Position numbers and translations under genes: made by a program. From Synechococcus sp. 8F6 (GTDB lineage: Bacteria; Cyanobacteriota; Cyanobacteriia; PCC-6307; Cyanobiaceae), in contig NZ_NQKZ01000015.1 of the NCBI RefSeq assembly GCF_002252665.1, forward strand, positions 1-44,984: DNA of 44,984 bases. Reading direction: 5' to 3'. The notes below the pieces were generated by a model, which ran no database searches, was not told the DNA's origin, and worked only from the letters and a program-made list of their open reading frames with translations. Positions 807-10,091 of this stretch are shown piece after piece; the stretch's first letter is position 1; each line of letters starts with the position of its first letter.

Positions 807-1778
807 ATGCCTGCGCCACAGAAGCTCCGCCGCGGAGACTGCGACGCGATCAGCCGGCACTTGCGTGCCATCGGTCGGGTGCCCCTGCTCACGCCTGAGG
901 AGGAAATCAGCCTGGGGCGGGCCGTGCAAAACGGCCAAAAACTGCTGGAGACAGCGGAAGAAATGAAGCTGCGCTGCGGCGGCCAGGAGCCCTGCCTGCA
1001 GGCCTGGGCCCTGGAGCTGGGCCTGACACCCCGTCAATTGCAGCGCCAACTGCGGCAGGCGGAGCGCGCCCGCGAGCGGATGGTGACCGCCAACTTGCGG
1101 CTGGTGGTGAGCATGGCGCGGCGCTACAGCCGTGGGCGCCTGGAACTCGACGACCTAATCCAGTAGGGGACCCTCGGCCTGATCCGCGCTGTCCAGCGCT
1201 ACGACCCAAGCCGGGGCTATCGGTTTTCCACCTATGCCACCTGGTGGGTTCGCGAAGGCCTGGGCCGGGCCCTGCAGCAGCAGGGCCGCAGCATCCGACT
1301 GCCGGCCCACATGCAAGACCGCCTGCAGCGTCTGCGGCGCTGTCAGCAGGAACTGCGCCAGATGCTCGGCCGCGAAGCCAGCCTCGAGGAGCTGGCGGAC
1401 GCCACCGAACTCAAACCGCTGGACATCCGGGAAGCACTGTTCCGCGCTCAGGAACCGCTCAGCCTCGACAGCGGCCACGGTTCGGAAGAGAAGCTGCGCC
1501 TGCTCGACACGCTGCGCTGCCAGGCCCAGCTGCCCCAGGACATGCTCACGGCCCATCTGTTGCAGAGCGACCTGGGGGCACTGCTCGAGGAGCTGCCTGC
1601 CCATGAAGTCGAGTTGCTGCGGTTGCGCTACGGCATCGACCAACCCGCACCCCTCAACCTCAGCGCCATCGCCCGGCAGATGGGCATCAGCCGCGACCAG
1701 GCCCGGGGGGTTGAACGCCGCGCCCACGCAGCGATCCGGCGCCTGTCGCAACGGGTGATCGACTATCTGGAAGCCTGA
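807..1778 (+). pseudogene. Group 2 sigma-70 factor interrupted by one nonsense codon
   Basis: The frame encodes a sigma factor of the cyanobacterial group 2 type. Region 1.2 is CDAISRHLRAIGRVPLLTPEE, region 2 contains ANLRLVVSMARRYSRGRLEL and then DDLIQ. After the stop it continues in the same frame with [36 protein letters not shown], region 3, and a region 4 helix-turn-helix ([20 protein letters not shown]). The break is a TAG at 1164-1166, exactly where the nearly invariant Glu of the DLIQEG motif should be, so one G-to-T change (GAG to TAG) explains it. No frameshift is present and the rest of the frame is open, which suggests a recent event. Start 807 is preferred because region 1.2 follows; an in-frame ATG at 702 also exists. 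Separate N- and C-terminal fragments would each lack half the core-binding or DNA-binding function. Confidence 0.85.
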
Positions 1779-1908
1779 TGCCCATGCGCCGTCCGCAATC
1801 TCTCCGCAGCCCGCATGAGCTGAACTACGGCCCAATGCCATGTGAATGGGACCAAGAGCGGTGCATGCTGAGCGGCGGCCGGCATGGCTGACACCGCGAG
1901 CTGACACC

Positions 1909-3192
1909 ATGAGCTGGCACCCCCACCTCTGGCACCCCACCACCCAGGTGGCCACGAGCCCCGAGCCGCTGCAGGTGCGCTCCGCCCGCGGCAGTGAGCT
2001 GGTGCTCGCCGATGGTCGCCGCCTGATCGATGCGATCAGCAGCTGGTGGGTGACCCTCCATGGCCACGCCGAGCCCGCCATTGCGGCGGCGATTGCCCGC
2101 CAGGCCCAGCAGCTGGAGCAGGTGATCTTCGCCAACTTCAGCCACGCCCCCGCCGAACAGCTGGCCACCCGGATCAGCGCCCTGACGGGCCTCGAGCGGC
2201 TGTTCTTCTCCGACAACGGCTCCACCGCCGTGGAAGTGGCGCTCAAGATCGCCTGGCAGTGGTGGCGCAACCAGGGCAGTGGCGACGCGGCGGGACTGCG
2301 CCGGCAGGTGATTGCCTTCGAGGGGGCGTACCACGGCGACACCTTCGGCGCGATGGCGCTGGGGGAGCGCTCGCTGTTTACCGACCCCTATGAGCCCCTG
2401 TTGTTTGCCGTGGCCCGTGTGGCCTGGCCCCACAGCCACTGGGGCGACGACGCGGTGGAGCAACGGGAACACCACGCCCTGCGCCAGCTCGAGCGGGCCC
2501 TGGAGACGCCCACCGCCGCCGTGATCCTCGAACCCCTGATCCAGGGGGCCAGCGGCATGCGGGTGGTGCGGCCGGCCTTCCTGCGGGCCGTGGCCGAGCG
2601 GGTGAAAGCCGCCGGCGCCCTGCTGATCGCCGATGAGGTATTCACGGGCTTCAGTCGCACGGGCGACCTGTTCGCCTGCCGCCGGGCCGGCATTCAACCC
2701 GACCTGATGGCCCTCTCCAAAGGCCTCACCGGAGGCTTCCTGCCGATGGGGGTGACGATGGCCAGCGAGCGGCTCTACCAGGGCTTCATCAGCGAGCGGC
2801 CCGAAGCCACCTTCTTCCACGGCCACAGCTTCACCGCCAACCCCCTGGGCTGTGCCGCGGCGCTGGCCAGCTTGGATCTGCTCCAGGCCCACCCCGAGCG
2901 CTTCCAGCAGTTCGAGCTGCGCCACACGCCCCTGCTCGAGGAGCTGGCCCAGCACCCCTTGGTGCGGCGGCCGCGCTGCGTCGGCACCATGGCGGCCTTT
3001 GATGTGGAAGCTGGCGAGGCCAGCTACCTCAATCCCGTGGGCAAACAGATCCAGCGCCACTGCCTAGAACAGGGCGTGTACCTGCGCCCGCTGGGCAACG
3101 TGGTGTATCTGCTGCCGCCCCTGGGGATCAGCACCCCCCAGCTTGAGCAGTGCTACGGCGCTCTGCGTTCAGCCGTCGACGCCCTGGCTTAA
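1909..3192 (+). CDS. bioA: Adenosylmethionine-8-amino-7-oxononanoate aminotransferase (BioA)
   Basis: PLP-dependent class III aminotransferase of 427 residues that converts KAPA to DAPA in biotin synthesis, using S-adenosylmethionine as amino donor. Visible signs are the N-terminal HLWHPTTQ box, the [16 protein letters not shown] segment, the PLP aspartate region [14 protein letters not shown] and the Schiff-base lysine in [16 protein letters not shown]. Length is normal for the family. The ATG at 1909 places the conserved WHP box a few residues from the N-terminus. An upstream in-frame ATG at 1846 would add an unconserved leader. The stop overlaps the stop of the convergent ndhF/cupS relict in a shared TTAA. 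No other bio gene lies in the window, though bioF/D/C often precede bioA in this group. Confidence 0.92.
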
Positions 3193-4945
3193 CCCGGCAG
3201 GATCACGCGATCGATCACGTGCACCACGCCGTTGTCGCAGGCGATGTCGGCCGTCACCACGGTGGCGTTTTTCACCTCGAAGGGATCGGCGCGGCGGATC
3301 GGGATCGGGGCGCCTTCCAGGCTCGGCAACTCCGGCTGCGCCACCAGGGCCTCCCGGGTGTGGGCACCAGCGATCACGTGATACTTCAGGATCCGCGCCA
3401 GCTGAGGTGGGTTGTCCACCAGGGTCTGCACCGTGCCGGGGGGCAGGGCATAGACGCCGTTGCGCACCAGCAGCTGGGGCAGGTGCAGCACCAGCCCCAT
3501 CAGCACGGTGGTGGGCAGCACCATCAGCCACAGCACCTCTGCCGAGCGGTGGGTGAAGGGGGTGGGACGCCCGCCCCAGATCTGGCCGAACACACGGATC
3601 AAGCCAGCGCTGATCAGGGCATTGCTGAGCAACACCACCCCACCCAGCAGCCAGGGGTGGCCGCTGCTGGCCGTGAGGGCCAGCAACTCCCGCAGGGCCG
3701 CGAAGCCGGCGAAGGGGGGCAGGCCCATGAGACCGGCGGCACCGGCCAGGAAGGCCAGGCCCATCAGCGGCCGCCGGCTCCAGAGCCCCCCAGTTGGGTG
3801 AGGTCCTGGGTGACGTTGCTGATCACGATCGTGCCGATCGCCATCAACAGCAAGGCCATCGGCAGCGGATACACCAGCAGCAGATGGTCGGCCACGGCGC
3901 TGCCGCCCAGACCGACCGCCACAAACAGCAGCCCCAGCCAACTGCTCACCAGGAAACTCAGCGCCCGCTTGACATCGATCTGGGCCAAGGCAATCAGCGA
4001 GGCCACCACGGCGGTGGAGCCCCCCACCACCACCAGCACGCTCTGCACGAAGGGGCTGAGCTCCAGCAGCGGCTCTAGGCGCAACAGAACCCAGGCGCCA
4101 CCCACCACCACCACCGCATTGCGCAGGATCGTGGAGGGCAGCGGACTCTCCATCGCCTCGTCGAGCCAGAGGTGCAGGGGGATCTGGGCGCACTTCCCCA
4201 TCGGACCAGCGATCAGGGCCAGCAAGATCAGCTGAAATCCCGCTGGAAGGCTCTGGCCGTTATTGCTGAGGTCGGCAGCCCAGGCCTGAAGGCCATGAAA
4301 ATTCCAGGTGCCGGCAACCGGCAGCAGGGCAATCACTCCGGCCAACAGGATCAGGTCGCCAAGGCGTTTGGTGAGAAAGGCGTCGCGAGCCCCCTTCACC
4401 ACCAGGGGCTGGTTGTACCAGGTGCCCACGATCAGGTAGGTGCCGAGGGTGAGCAGCTCCAGGATCACGTAGCTGAAGAACACCGAATCGGTGAGCACCA
4501 GGGCGCACAGACCCGCCTCGAAGAAGCTGAGCGAGCCGAAAAACCGCGGCCAGCCCCAGTCCATCTCCAGGTAGCCGATCGCATAGATCTGCACCAGCAG
4601 GTGCAGGCCCGTGATCACCGCCATCGCCACCAGGGCGGGCTCGGTCACCAGTCCGTCAAAGCCGACCCGCAAGCCGGCGGTGTCGAGCCAGGTCCAGTTG
4701 AAACTGATCGGCCGATGCAGAGCCTCAGCGCCGGCGCGGGCATTGGTGTGCAGGGCTGATAGGGCGCAGACGCTATGGGCGAAGGCCACAGCCACCATCG
4801 CCAGATTGAGGTAGCCGCAGGGGCGGGGGCCCGTGCGGGAGATCACGCCTGGCGACCACGCCAGGGAGGCCAGAGCTGCGACCAGGGGGTACAGGGGCAC
4901 AAGCCAGGCCGTCTGAAGCAGAAAGACGGTCACAATGTCAACCAA
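3189..4945 (-). pseudogene. Collapsed CO2-uptake NDH-1 locus: frameshifted ndhF fused to a truncated fasciclin/CupS-like domain
   Basis: From 4945 downwards the frame encodes an NdhF of the CO2-uptake type, with DWGWPRFFGSLSFFEAGLCA, LELLTLGTYLIVGTWYNQPL and KGARDAFLTKRLGDLILLAG. Near 3786-3791 (a run of six G on the coding strand) the frame shifts: LTQLGG ends in stop, while the other frame resumes at once with [19 protein letters not shown]. NdhF sequence continues to about residue 490 ([18 protein letters not shown]). The frame then passes without a stop into [36 protein letters not shown] and [14 protein letters not shown], the C-terminal half of a fasciclin (FAS1) domain. CupS of the ndhF3-ndhD3-cupA-cupS operon is a FAS1-fold protein. 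I therefore infer a deletion from late ndhF3 into mid cupS, junction near 3455-3490, removing ndhD3 and cupA. The start is TTG at 4945 or GTG at 4933. Function is almost certainly lost. Confidence 0.75.
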
Positions 4946-5342: not shown

Positions 5343-5999
5343 TCAACCAGCCCGACGGCGCGCCAGAACGACCTTCACCAGCAGCGCCACCACGCCCGCC
5401 CCCAAGGCAATCCAGGCCAGCAGCTGAATCATCTGGGACCAGGGAGCCAACCATCCCTCCACCTGCGCATAGCCCTTGCCCATCGCCTGGCCCGCCAGGG
5501 TGAGTAGCAGGGTCCAGATCAGGCTGCCAGCGGTCGTCCAGGCCAGAAAAGCGGGTTGAGGCATCGTCTCGATGCCCGCCGGCACCGACACCAGGGTGCG
5601 CAGGCCAGGAATCAGCCGCCCCCAGAACACCACGGCCGCCCCATGCCGCTTGAACCAGCGGCGACTGCGGGCCAGATCGCCGACCTGGATGCCCAGCCAC
5701 TTGCCCCGTCGCTCCAGCCACTGGCCGATTCGCTCCTCGCTGATCAACCGGCCGATGCCATACCAAAACCAGGCCCCCAGCACGGTGCCCACCAGCCCGG
5801 CCAACACGGTGGGGAGCAACTCCAAACGCCCCTGGTAGACCAGATACCCCCCATAGGGCATCACCACCTCCGAGGGGATGGGTGGGATGAGGTTTTCCAG
5901 CAACATCACCAGGGCGATGGCGCCATAGCCCAGCAGCGGGTTGGCCTCCACCGCCGAGCCGATCAGGTTGGACAAACCGTCGACTGAGGGCAGCGTCAA
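5343..5999 (-). CDS. DedA / SNARE-associated family membrane protein
   Basis: About 218 residues if it starts at the TTG at 5997-5999. DedA-family hallmarks are the early helix ending ENLIPPIPSEVVMPYGGYLV, an internal GTVLGAWFWYGIGRL helix, and FWGRLIPGLRTLVSVPAGIE followed by the MPQPAFL loop. DedA proteins are polytopic inner-membrane proteins implicated in lipid scrambling (undecaprenyl phosphate, phosphatidylethanolamine) and envelope homeostasis; the substrate here is unknown. The frame is open further upstream, but the added sequence would overlap the divergent ktrB start and lacks DedA similarity. Only about 60 bases separate it from ktrB, so the two promoters must be compact or overlapping. 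Confidence 0.85.
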   Translation of the reverse strand: MTLPSVDGLSNLIGSAVEANPLLGYGAIALVMLLENLIPPIPSEVVMPYGGYLVYQGRLELLPTVLAGLVGTVLGAWFWYGIGRLISEERIGQWLERRGKWLGIQVGDLARSRRWFKRHGAAVVFWGRLIPGLRTLVSVPAGIETMPQPAFLAWTTAGSLIWTLLLTLAGQAMGKGYAQVEGWLAPWSQMIQLLAWIALGAGVVALLVKVVLARRRAG

Positions 6000-6062
6000 G
6001 GGAAAACCCTGGTGTCCGGGGTGATTAGGGTAGACATCGCTTTGGCATCGCCCCAGGCTCCG

Positions 6063-7499
6063 ATGCGGCGATCTGCCCCAAGCCCTGCCACTGCCCCCAA
6101 CCTGACCGCCGCCACCCCCTGGAACGCGGTCAAAACGTGGCGGCAGCAACTCACCGTGCCGCAGTTCACGGTGGTGACCGGTGCCCTGGTGATCGCCTTC
6201 GGCACCGTGATCCTGGCCAGCCCGCTCTGCTCCACCGACGCGGTGGGCCTGTGGGAGGCACTGTTCACCGTGACCTCAGCGATCACGGTGACGGGGCTGT
6301 CGATCATCGACATCAGCCGCGACCTCACCGCCTTTGGCCAGGTGGCCCTGGCGGGCCTGATCATCACGGGCGGCCTGGGCCTGATGGCGATCACCACTTT
6401 CCTGCAGGGTTTCGTGCAGGGCCACTCGGGCCTGCGCCACCGGCTCGACAGGGGCCGGGCCCTCGACGACTTCGGCGTGGGCGGCATCGGCCCCACCTTC
6501 AACAGCATCCTGATGACGGGCTTCTGCGTGATGGGCCTGGGCACCGTGGTGCTCTACGTCTTCGGTTTCACCGACATCAACAATCCGCTCGAGCGCCTCT
6601 GGGCTGCGCTGTTTCACTGCATCAGCGCCTACAACAACGCCGGCTTCGGCCTCTGGAGCGACAACCTGGTGCACTACCGAGACAACCCCGTGGTGAATGG
6701 GGTCATCGCCACCATGGTCGTGGTGGGCGGCATCGGCTGGCGGGTGATCAACGACCTATGGAGCAACCGGGCCCGACTGCAACGGATGCGCCGGCTCAGC
6801 CTGCACACCCGTCTTGTGCTGCGCAGCACGGTGCTGCTGATCGGCTTTGGCGCCCTAGGCCTGCTGTTCACCGAGCACTTCGCCGCCGGCGGCGTGATGG
6901 AAAATCTCCACTGGTGGCAGCGGATCCAGGTGACGCTGTTCCAATCGATCACCGCCCGCACGGCAGGCTTCAACACCGTGCCCCTGTCGATCCAGACCTT
7001 CTCCGACGCCGGCTTGCTGCTGTTGATCGTGCTGATGTTCATCGGCGCCAGCCCCGGCGGCACCGGCGGCGGCATCAAAACCACCACCTTCGCCACCCTG
7101 ATGGGAGCCACCCGCTCCACCCTCCAGGGCCGGGAAGAAGTGGTGATCCACCGGCGCCAGATCCCCGACACCGTGGTGCTGCGCGCCGTGGGTGTAACCC
7201 TGGCGTCGGCGATCTTCGTGATCCTGATGGCCCTGCTGCTGGGGCTCGGGCCAACCACCACTGGAGAGCCGACCAGCATCAGCTTCAACTTCCTGGAAAA
7301 GCTGTTCACCTGCGTGTCGGCCTTCGGCACCGTGGGTTTTGACCTGGGCGTGACCGCCCAGCTCAACCGCTGGGGCCAGCTGGTGCTGATGGTGGGCATG
7401 TTCGTGGGCAGACTGGGCATCCTGCTACTGCTCTCAGCGATCTATGGCAGCCGGCCCCAACCGCGCGTGGGCTATCCCCGCGAAGAGCTCTACATCTGA
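6063..7499 (+). CDS. ktrB: KtrB-type potassium uptake channel subunit
   Basis: A TrkH/KtrB/HKT-superfamily K+ translocating subunit of about 478 residues. Four selectivity loops can be seen, each with its filter glycine: SAITVTGLSI, ISAYNNAGFGL, SITARTAGFNTV and VSAFGTVGFDLG. The conserved intramembrane gating loop appears as GASPGGTGGGIKTTTFATL, and MVVVGGIGWRVINDLW belongs to the second repeat. In cyanobacteria KtrB works with the RCK protein KtrA (next gene, 12 bases downstream) in Na+-dependent high-affinity K+ uptake under osmotic stress. Start 6063 (MRRSAPSPATAP) is preferred; an in-frame ATG at 6012 would run close to the divergent dedA start. KtrE, a third subunit in Synechocystis, is not in the window. 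Confidence 0.9.
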   Translation: MRRSAPSPATAPNLTAATPWNAVKTWRQQLTVPQFTVVTGALVIAFGTVILASPLCSTDAVGLWEALFTVTSAITVTGLSIIDISRDLTAFGQVALAGLIITGGLGLMAITTFLQGFVQGHSGLRHRLDRGRALDDFGVGGIGPTFNSILMTGFCVMGLGTVVLYVFGFTDINNPLERLWAALFHCISAYNNAGFGLWSDNLVHYRDNPVVNGVIATMVVVGGIGWRVINDLWSNRARLQRMRRLSLHTRLVLRSTVLLIGFGALGLLFTEHFAAGGVMENLHWWQRIQVTLFQSITARTAGFNTVPLSIQTFSDAGLLLLIVLMFIGASPGGTGGGIKTTTFATLMGATRSTLQGREEVVIHRRQIPDTVVLRAVGVTLASAIFVILMALLLGLGPTTTGEPTSISFNFLEKLFTCVSAFGTVGFDLGVTAQLNRWGQLVLMVGMFVGRLGILLLLSAIYGSRPQPRVGYPREELYI

Positions 7500-7511
7500 A
7501 CTCCCAAACCC

Positions 7512-8216
7512 ATGACGAACTGGTGGCACTGGAACCCTTCGGAAGGCGCCATCAAGGGAGGGTTTGCGGTGATCGGCGTGGGACGCTTCGGCTCCGCCGT
7601 GTGCAGCGAACTGAGCAAGGCCGGGGCCGAGGTGCTGGCGATCGATGCCAGCCAGCGGGCCATCGATGAGCTGCGCCAGATGGACCCCGCCATCGAAGCG
7701 CGGGTGGTGGATTGCACCGACGAAGAGGCCCTAAGGGCCGCCGGCGTGCTCGACATGACCACGGTGGTGGTGGCCATGAGTGATCCGATCGAAGCCAGCG
7801 TGACCGCCACCTTGATCGTCAAGGACGGTGCCGGCAGCCGGGTGAAACAGGTGATCGCCAGGGCCACCAGCGATCTGCACATGAAGATGCTGCAGCGGGT
7901 GGGGGCCGATCGGGTGGTGTTCCCCTCGAAGATGCAGGGGCACCGGCTCGGCATGGAGCTGGTGCGGCCCAACCTTCTGGAGCGCCTGCGCCTCGACGAC
8001 CGCAACAGCATCGAGGAGATTCGCGTGCCCCAGGCCTTCATCGGCCAGTCGCTGCGCGACATCAATCTGCGCAAGAACTTCAACGTCAGCGTGCTGGCCG
8101 CCGGACCCGACAACCAGCTCACCGTCAATCCACCCGCCTCCCACGTGCTCCAGGCCGGCGAGCTGCTGGTGGTGATGGGCGCCAGCGACGCCCTGGCGGA
8201 GCTGCCCGGGGCGTAG
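7512..8216 (+). CDS. ktrA: KtrA regulatory RCK subunit of K+ uptake
   Basis: A 234-residue cytosolic protein with an N-terminal Rossmann RCK_N domain (FAVIGVGRFGSAVCSELSKA, then VLAIDAS with the acidic residue at the end of strand 2) and a C-terminal RCK_C domain (SIEEIRVPQAFIGQSLRDIN). These proteins form octameric rings that gate KtrB in response to ATP/ADP and, in some species, c-di-AMP. It directly follows ktrB with a 12-base gap, so co-transcription is expected. The length is typical. Nothing unusual is seen in the nucleotide-binding glycines. Confidence 0.92.
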   Translation: MTNWWHWNPSEGAIKGGFAVIGVGRFGSAVCSELSKAGAEVLAIDASQRAIDELRQMDPAIEARVVDCTDEEALRAAGVLDMTTVVVAMSDPIEASVTATLIVKDGAGSRVKQVIARATSDLHMKMLQRVGADRVVFPSKMQGHRLGMELVRPNLLERLRLDDRNSIEEIRVPQAFIGQSLRDINLRKNFNVSVLAAGPDNQLTVNPPASHVLQAGELLVVMGASDALAELPGA

Positions 8217-8282
8217 ACATCGAGGCGTTGCACATTCTCGATCGACTTACCGGGTTATTGTCAACAGTCCGCGCGATCGGCC

Positions 8283-10091
8283 ATGTCTGAGCTCTCCGTC
8301 GCCCTGCTTCAGCCCGGGGCGCTCACCACCCTGCTGGTGCTGGCTGGATCGGTGGTGCTGTTCATCAGCGGCTGGCTGGCACCGGAGGTCACAGGCCTGC
8401 TCGCTGCCGCGCTCCTGATCGTCACGGGAGTGCTCAACCCCACAGAGGCGCTGGAGGGCTTCGGCAGCCCCGCCCTGATCACCCTGATGGGCCTATTTGC
8501 CCTCTCGGCCGGGCTGTTCCGCAGCGGCGGCCTCGATCGGCTGCGGGCCCTGATCGGCTCCGACGCCGTGCGCAGCCCCAAGCGGATGATCACCCTGATG
8601 GTGGCAGCCGTGGGGCCGGTGTCGGCCTTTGTGCCCAACACTCCAATCGTGGCCAGTCTGCTGCCGGTGATCGAGGGCTGGTGCCAGCGCCGCCGCATCT
8701 CCCCCTCCAAGGTGCTGCTACCGCTGTCCTTTGCCACGGTGCTCGGCGGCACACTGTCCCTACTGGGCAGTTCGGTCAACCTGCTGGCCAGCGAGGTGAG
8801 CAGCAAACTGGGCTACGGCGCCTTCGGCCTGTTCAGCCTCACACCGATCGGGCTGGGTGTGTGGCTGGTGGGCGGTTTGGTGATGGTGCTGCTGGCCGAT
8901 CGCTTTCTGCCCGACCGCGGCAGCAACGACGACGATCTGGTCGCCAGTCTTGCCAGCAGCGGCTACCTCACGGAGGTGAAGATCCCCGCCGACTCCGAGC
9001 TGATCGGCGAGTCGCTGCACGGCAGCCGCTTGCAACGCCGCTTCGACGTGGACGTGCTCGAGTTGCACCGCGCCAACGAGCGCTTCCTGCCCCCCCTGGC
9101 GGACCGCACCCTGATGCTGGGTGATCGCCTGCTGCTGCGCTGCAGCCGCGAAGACTTGCTGCGGCTGCAGCAGGACCACACGGTGGTGTTAGCCCCGACC
9201 CCCGAAGAAGCAATCCGCCCAGACCAGCAGAACAACCAGCGAATGGTGGAGGTGCTGCTGCCCTCCGGCTCCTCCCTGGCCGGCGACTGCCTGCGGGATC
9301 TGCGCTTCCGCCAGCGCTACAACGTGACCGTGCTCGCCCTGCGGCGCGGCAACGCCGTGCTGCGCGAACGCCTGGGCCGGGCCCAGCTGCGCGAAGGGGA
9401 TGTGCTGCTGCTGCAAGGGCCGAAGGATGCGATTCGCGGCCTTCAGGCCAACAACGATCTGGTGGTACTCGAGCAACTGGAAAAAGACTTGCCGACCGTG
9501 AGTCGCAAGCGGGTGGCCCTGGTGATCGCCGCTCTGGTGATCCTGCTGACAGCCCTGAATGTCATTCCCCTGGTGGCAGCGGTGCTGTTGGGCACGGTGG
9601 CGATGGTGGCCACGGGCTGCCTGCGGGCGGGGGAATTGCAGCGGGCGATCCGCCTCGATGTGATCCTGCTGCTCGGATCGCTGGCCAGTTTCAGCGTGGC
9701 GCTGGAAAAAACCGGTCTGGCTGCGGCCCTGGCTCAAGCCTTGCTGAACGGCCTGCAGAGCTGGCCGGTGTACGCCGCGCTGGTGGTGGTGTTTCTGTTC
9801 ACCACGTTGCTCACCGAGGTGATGAGCAATGCCGCCACCGTGGCCATGTTGATTCCGATTGCCGGTCAACTCGCCCAAGGCCTAAACCAGCCGCCGATGG
9901 CCTTCATCTACGCCGTGCTGTTCGGGGCCAGCCAGAGCTTTCTCAGCCCGGTGGGGTATCAGACCAACCTGATGGTGTTCGGCCCCGGTCGCTACCGCTT
10001 CCTGGATGTGGCCCGCTACGGGTTTCCCCTAACCGTGGTGATGACCCTGCTGGTGCCCCTGCTGCTGTGCCTTCACTTCGGGCTCAGCTGA
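8283..10091 (+). CDS. SLC13/DASS-family permease with two internal RCK_C domains
   Basis: A 602-residue membrane protein of the type annotated as SLC13 family permease or sodium/sulfate symporter. An N-terminal block of helices contains AEVTGLLAAALLI-like and FVPNTPIVASLLPVIEGW segments. Two soluble TrkA-C (RCK_C) domains sit in the middle (starting near VKIPADSELIGESLHGSRL and VEVLLPSGSSLAGDCLRDL). The C-terminal helix block has TEVMSNAATVAMLIPIA and FGASQSFLSPVGYQTNLMV. The NTP and SNAA motifs are typical DASS substrate and Na+ site signatures. Likely substrates are sulfate or related anions, but this cannot be settled from sequence. It lies 66 bases after ktrA. Its end overlaps the end of the convergent ABC ATPase by 8 bases. 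Confidence 0.85.
   Translation: MSELSVALLQPGALTTLLVLAGSVVLFISGWLAPEVTGLLAAALLIVTGVLNPTEALEGFGSPALITLMGLFALSAGLFRSGGLDRLRALIGSDAVRSPKRMITLMVAAVGPVSAFVPNTPIVASLLPVIEGWCQRRRISPSKVLLPLSFATVLGGTLSLLGSSVNLLASEVSSKLGYGAFGLFSLTPIGLGVWLVGGLVMVLLADRFLPDRGSNDDDLVASLASSGYLTEVKIPADSELIGESLHGSRLQRRFDVDVLELHRANERFLPPLADRTLMLGDRLLLRCSREDLLRLQQDHTVVLAPTPEEAIRPDQQNNQRMVEVLLPSGSSLAGDCLRDLRFRQRYNVTVLALRRGNAVLRERLGRAQLREGDVLLLQGPKDAIRGLQANNDLVVLEQLEKDLPTVSRKRVALVIAALVILLTALNVIPLVAAVLLGTVAMVATGCLRAGELQRAIRLDVILLLGSLASFSVALEKTGLAAALAQALLNGLQSWPVYAALVVVFLFTTLLTEVMSNAATVAMLIPIAGQLAQGLNQPPMAFIYAVLFGASQSFLSPVGYQTNLMVFGPGRYRFLDVARYGFPLTVVMTLLVPLLLCLHFGLS

Follow-up and report, generated by a model that had tools for sequence, protein, structure and literature searches.

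A probable deletion scar of the ndhF3-ndhD3-cupA-cupS operon beside bioA in Synechococcus sp. 8F6

The region next to bioA in Synechococcus sp. 8F6 raises the question of how a frame of the CO2-uptake type of ndhF comes to run into the end of a fasciclin-domain gene, and whether the resulting frame still has a function. The ndhF3-ndhD3-cupA-cupS operon encodes subunits of the low-CO2-inducible complex NDH-1MS. We analysed a stretch of 44,984 nt (contig NZ_NQKZ01000015.1, positions 1-44,984, hereafter the window), in which two overlapping ORFs on the minus strand, 4945-3764 and 4193-3189, are frames of one broken gene that occupies 3189-4945. An earlier interpretation made from the letters of the DNA alone (the sequence-only reading) described this as an operon collapsed by a single deletion of several kb and decayed further by a separate one-base frameshift. 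We are highly confident that the window contains a recently dead ndhF3-ndhD3-cupA-cupS operon, the scar of one deletion of ~3.4 kb plus a frameshift.

Both ORFs exist as the sequence-only reading described them, and profile matches to TIGR01960 (NCBIfam, ndhF3_CO2) and Pfam Fasciclin confirmed an ndhF frame of the CO2-uptake type that runs stop-free into a fasciclin end (Table 1). The ndhF3 match falls into two pieces, of 503 and 93 bits, and does not reach the curated TIGR01960 cut-off of 588.7 bits. In frame b, no stop separates ndhF3 from the 86 residues that end cupS, and the Fasciclin match covers columns 38-123 of 123 only, not the whole FAS1 domain. The fused halves are not a chance pairing, because their E-values are 4.6e-151 (ndhF3) and 6.5e-21 (Fasciclin) and both stand in normal gene order. 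The remnant is of the NdhF3 type, not NdhF4 or NdhF1: its nucleotide identity to ndhF3 of a same-genus relative (G015) is 84% and its best PDB match is 6tjv_F, while the intact NdhF4 of the same genome shows a protein identity to G015 NdhF3 of only 42%. The nominal start of ndhF3 is a TTG at 4945; a GTG at 4933 aligns with the ATG of the relatives and is the likely start.

Table 1. Features of the ndhF3-cupS remnant and its flanking genes in the window
Feature	Position	Strand	Details
ndhF3 5' part, frame a	3797..4945	-	~380 codons; TIGR01960 columns 4-371 (at 4924-3782, one frame); PDB 6tjv_F, E=2.4e-121
One-base frameshift, run of G	3786..3796	-	Gap at 3792 in alignment with ten relatives
ndhF3 continuation, frame b	3450..3788	-	113 codons; TIGR01960 columns 368-479 of 606 (at 3794-3453, next frame); 6tjv_F residues 370-477 of 611
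Deletion junction	3438..3452	-	Possible short shared word GCCCT(G), coding orientation
cupS 3' end	3189..3449	-	86 codons plus stop; FAS1 profile columns 38-123 (Pfam Fasciclin at 3449-3195, frame b, the frame of the ndhF3 continuation); 6tjv_Q and 2mxa_A, E ~1e-25
bioA, intact	1846..3192	+	TIGR00508, E=1.8e-146; convergent with cupS; conserved neighbour anchoring the locus
DedA/VTT-domain gene	5355..6029	-	Pfam VTT_dom and synteny; upstream of ndhF3; other anchor of the locus

A single frame of the window contains parts of NdhF3 and CupS, two separate chains of one solved complex, NDH-1MS. In this complex (also NDH-I3; 6TJV, Thermosynechococcus elongatus, operon ndhF3-ndhD3-cupA-cupS), chains F and Q are homologous to the two remnants. 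Unlike that system, the window lacks ndhD3 and cupA, and its ndhF3 and cupS are truncated, fused and frameshifted. The remnant should be unable to form an NDH-1MS complex.

Alignment to NdhF3 and CupS placed the junction, the C-terminal part matching CupS itself. Alignment to six relatives put the breakpoint at 3449/3450, just outside the interval near 3455-3490 that the sequence-only reading had given. The same alignment upheld the proposal of a single deletion from late ndhF3 to cupS that took ndhD3 and cupA, with 'several kb' becoming ~3.4 kb: compared with the six relatives, the window lacks 3367, 3406, 3406, 3343, 3410 and 3395 bp (range 3343-3410). The missing span extends from about codon 493, late in ndhF3, through the first third of cupS, and ~130 C-terminal NdhF3 codons are gone. 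We propose that one such deletion would have joined late ndhF3 to the last 86 cupS codons and removed ndhD3 and cupA, the frame across the junction staying open by chance, and that the frameshift in the G run inside ndhF3 would have disabled the gene further. The remnant presumably yields no functional product.

The junction, in coding orientation, has the sequence ...GTCTAT|GCCCTGCCCCCC, and GCCCTGCCCCCC is also found at this place in cupS of G015, G004, G014 and G008. On the ndhF3 side, the sequence after the breakpoint begins with GCCCT at three of 14 loci of relatives and with TCCCTC at five, and shares less at six. The three GCCCT loci all belong to other genera (GCCCTC in G263 and G203, GCCCTG in G232), and the window no longer has its own ancestral ndhF3 end. 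The junction may have arisen at a GCCCT(G) word, by slipped-strand or microhomology deletion. On both sides the word would be read as Ala-Leu in the same phase, which would explain the open frame across it.

The sequence-only reading had placed the locus beside bioA, where TIGR00508 indeed identifies that gene, and had advised comparison with sister strains. Eight of the 11 same-genus genomes that are at least 90% complete, the window's genome included in the 11, carry ndhF3-ndhD3-cupA-cupS in that order, with bioA near cupS and the matched parts free of stops (G001, G004, G005, G008, G012, G013, G014 and G015; the NdhD3 match of G013 covers residues 75-505 of 523 only). The six relatives used to size the deletion are among these eight. 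A working operon is absent from the window's genome, G006 and G011; no scar can be read in G011 because its bioA contig ends 1.4 kb past bioA. Five more genomes are <90% complete: G002 has the four genes, with bioA on a different contig, contig ends truncate the region in G009 and G010, and neither ndhF3 nor cupS was found in G003 and G007. The bioA and cupS frames abut in the window and in G015, and an extra gene lies between them in G004, G005 and G006, encoding in G004 a sodium/hydrogen-exchanger family protein (Pfam).

A search of the rest of the genome detected the ndhF4/ndhD4 type and no intact ndhF3, ndhD3 or cupA; neither cupA and ndhD3 nor the missing ndhF3 and cupS parts were found on any other contig of the 99.99% complete assembly. 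The single ChpXY gene, on contig C52 beside ndhF4 and ndhD4, encodes a protein 37% identical to CupA. The NdhD-like proteins (L005, L006 and L007) are only 37-48% identical to G015 NdhD3, compared with 71-96% for NdhD3 of the other same-genus relatives. The window remnant is the one FAS1 gene of the genome. Other carbon uptake is retained, namely NDH-1MS' (ndhF4-ndhD4-cupB type), one SbtA-family protein, and two proteins sharing 86% and 48% identity with a SulP/STAS protein (Pfam) of G005, with a weaker third match at 32%. We take the G005 protein to be BicA.

It is conceivable that the contig was misjoined or missequenced and that the operon is intact in the organism. The assembly is an 84-contig draft of 2.51 Mb in which the locus lies <5 kb from the end of its contig (C10), and two single-base lesions, the homopolymer frameshift and a nonsense codon in a neighbouring sigma gene, are each <4 kb from that end. 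However, the missing genes and gene parts were found on no other contig, the shared junction word was judged too short to mislead an assembler, and a one-contig genome, G006, has a different deletion at the same locus. Of 36 comparisons of window genes with relatives' frames, which covered the window outside 32.6-44.8 kb, 27 gave a single frame without a stop. The other nine concerned the sigma gene, ndhF3, intact-ORF rows 1663, 7390 and 10833, antisense row 3003, and rows 15989, 20359 and 22039. We consider an artefact very unlikely.

The single-base lesions are a different matter from the deletion. The G run near 3790 has one base fewer in the window than in all ten relatives with sequence there, in agreement with the separate frameshift of the sequence-only reading; the only other gap within the window's ndhF3 part is of 9 bases and in frame. 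With a contig end close by and a stop in the neighbouring sigma gene as well, the ndhF3 frameshift and the sigma TAG could be sequence errors, an explanation that is much harder to apply to the 3.4-kb deletion. A frameshift in G033, a stop in the NdhF3 match of G263 and a cupS break in G203 may likewise be sequence errors and were given no weight. The sigma-70 family gene itself (807-1778, plus strand) has a single in-frame TAG at 1164-1166, aligned with Glu in a relative; G012 retains only pieces of the gene, and the fetched loci of G001 and G013 had no match.

The open frame also invites the hypothesis that NdhF3 and CupS form a functional fusion protein, perhaps as a subunit to which the CupS cap is tethered. 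In PMC6981117, CupS is described as capping CupA, and CupA as binding NdhF3, within NDH-1MS, and dN/dS is low in both parts of the remnant. The same paper names R37, Y41 and E114 as NdhF3 residues at the CupA site in T. elongatus; the window remnant retains R37 and Y41, and retains E114 as E123, as expected for a young pseudogene. The hypothesis is at odds with the failure to find NdhD3 and the catalytic, CO2-hydration subunit CupA in the genome, with the frameshift that ends the first frame, and with the loss of ~130 C-terminal residues from NdhF3 and of the first third of CupS. In addition, no other match among those listed carries the fusion, and we regard a functional fusion as extremely improbable.

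The fusion was sought with a junction-spanning query of 201 residues in 400 genomes of the family. Some match was obtained in 269 genomes, and a full-length match would rank at the top; among the matches listed, an alignment over residues 1-201 occurred only in the window's genome. Conservation of the fusion in many strains, which would have refuted the sequence-only reading, was not observed among these matches. Nor did the fusion occur at any of the 76 named loci that account for the best 80 of 116 confirmed stretches. Among the matches listed, those of six genomes (G389, G381, G407, G367, G395 and G404) extend beyond the junction as far as query residue 133-162. Their open frames are of 335-657 aa and none reaches the CupS end at 201; we read these as probable NdhF3 alignments that run on. 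A literature search, largely of sources outside subscription, listed no paper whose title concerns this fusion or picocyanobacterial ndhF3 pseudogenes.

The age of the deletion scar was approached through dN/dS, with reading frames chosen by similarity, and through private changes. Over 493 ndhF3 codons, mean dN/dS was 0.123 between the window and nine relatives and 0.110 in 36 pairs of intact relatives (0.031-0.189); over 86 cupS codons, it was 0.153 for the window versus 0.138 for intact relatives. The corresponding control values were 0.196 versus 0.153 for NdhF4 and 0.158 versus 0.145 for BioA (eight relatives). Private ndhF3 changes by codon position numbered 13/7/22 in the window, 13/10/20 in G013 and 19/11/20 in G002. 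Eight ndhF3 replacements are private to the window; seven relatives have 0-2 private replacements each, G013 has 14 and G002 has 16. The window's ndhF3 branch is long (0.134), with no near sister in the tree. Neither dN/dS nor private changes clearly revealed relaxed selection on the remnant, and the loss looks recent because dN/dS shows no clear relaxation. The lesions are probably recent, although low dN/dS is equally compatible with continued selection, and there may be a modest recent excess of replacements in the window's ndhF3.

Lesions of the same operon were identified in other genomes. G006, a one-contig genome of the same genus, is ~95% identical to G001 here and lacks 523 bp and ~4.5 kb in two deletions. 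Like the window, G006 has lost the operon from between bioA and the DedA gene and retains a cupS 3' end, but the two deletions are other ones and much less ndhF3 remains: 38 bp, with the last 48 cupS codons (L078:7788-8004). In G038, a one-contig genome of another genus, an insertion element (L179:3378-4643) interrupts cupA at residues 141-144; it has DDE_Tnp_1 and DDE_Tnp_1-associated domains, 20-bp terminal inverted repeats that are 85% complementary, and a 10-bp target duplication, CCCATACCCT. We take this element to be ISAs1-like. In G114, also one contig and of another genus, the frame of ndhF3 changes at residues 215-217, and ~5 kb with GGDEF, EAL and PAS genes lie between ndhF3 and ndhD3 (L180:886-7926).

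Taken by itself, the window locus is a pseudogene scar of an ordinary kind in a well-known system. The loss of an inducible CO2-uptake complex is caught partway there, and the breakpoint can be read along with both ends; the parallel losses are the main value. Considered with the lesions of G006, G038 and G114, the locus suggests repeated loss as at least part of the reason why the complex is patchily distributed in picocyanobacteria, a proposal testable by strain comparisons at low CO2. According to PMC9477826, ChpY/CupA occurs in freshwater alpha-picocyanobacteria and the high-affinity system is absent from all marine ones; the lesions described here resemble an ongoing loss within the group that has the system. 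We tentatively speculate, as something short of an even chance, that in Cyanobium-like alpha-picocyanobacteria NDH-1MS behaves as a revolving-door module: deletions, an insertion sequence and frameshifts, unrelated to one another, repeatedly remove it, while NDH-1MS' stays. If so, one could read from the genome of each lineage, by its loss of NDH-1MS, that the lineage had recently been released from CO2 limitation.

The sequence-only reading went further, proposing life in CO2-rich or otherwise buffered water. Adaptive loss of this kind concerns the cause, is compatible with a deletion scar, and accords with the reported absence from marine strains and with the further losses and lesions in relatives. 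We found the proposal unsupported: with NDH-1MS', SbtA and two BicA-like genes retained, a CO2-rich habitat is not needed to explain the loss, for which redundancy, drift or relaxed selection account equally well. We consider adaptive loss rather unlikely.

Several minor observations concern the locus and its surroundings. The ndhF3 remnant (3450-4933) does not group with those relatives that bioA places nearest to the window. Among the matches listed, the closest to this remnant over 118 residues include other genera (G377, G263 and G203, at 92%), a hint that the operon has recombined between lineages. In several relatives a BicA-like gene lies beyond bioA, on its other side. In the window, TrkH, TrkA-type and CitMHS/TrkA_C transporter genes follow the locus at 6012-10091 (plus strand), and like genes occur in the same order in G005 and G006.
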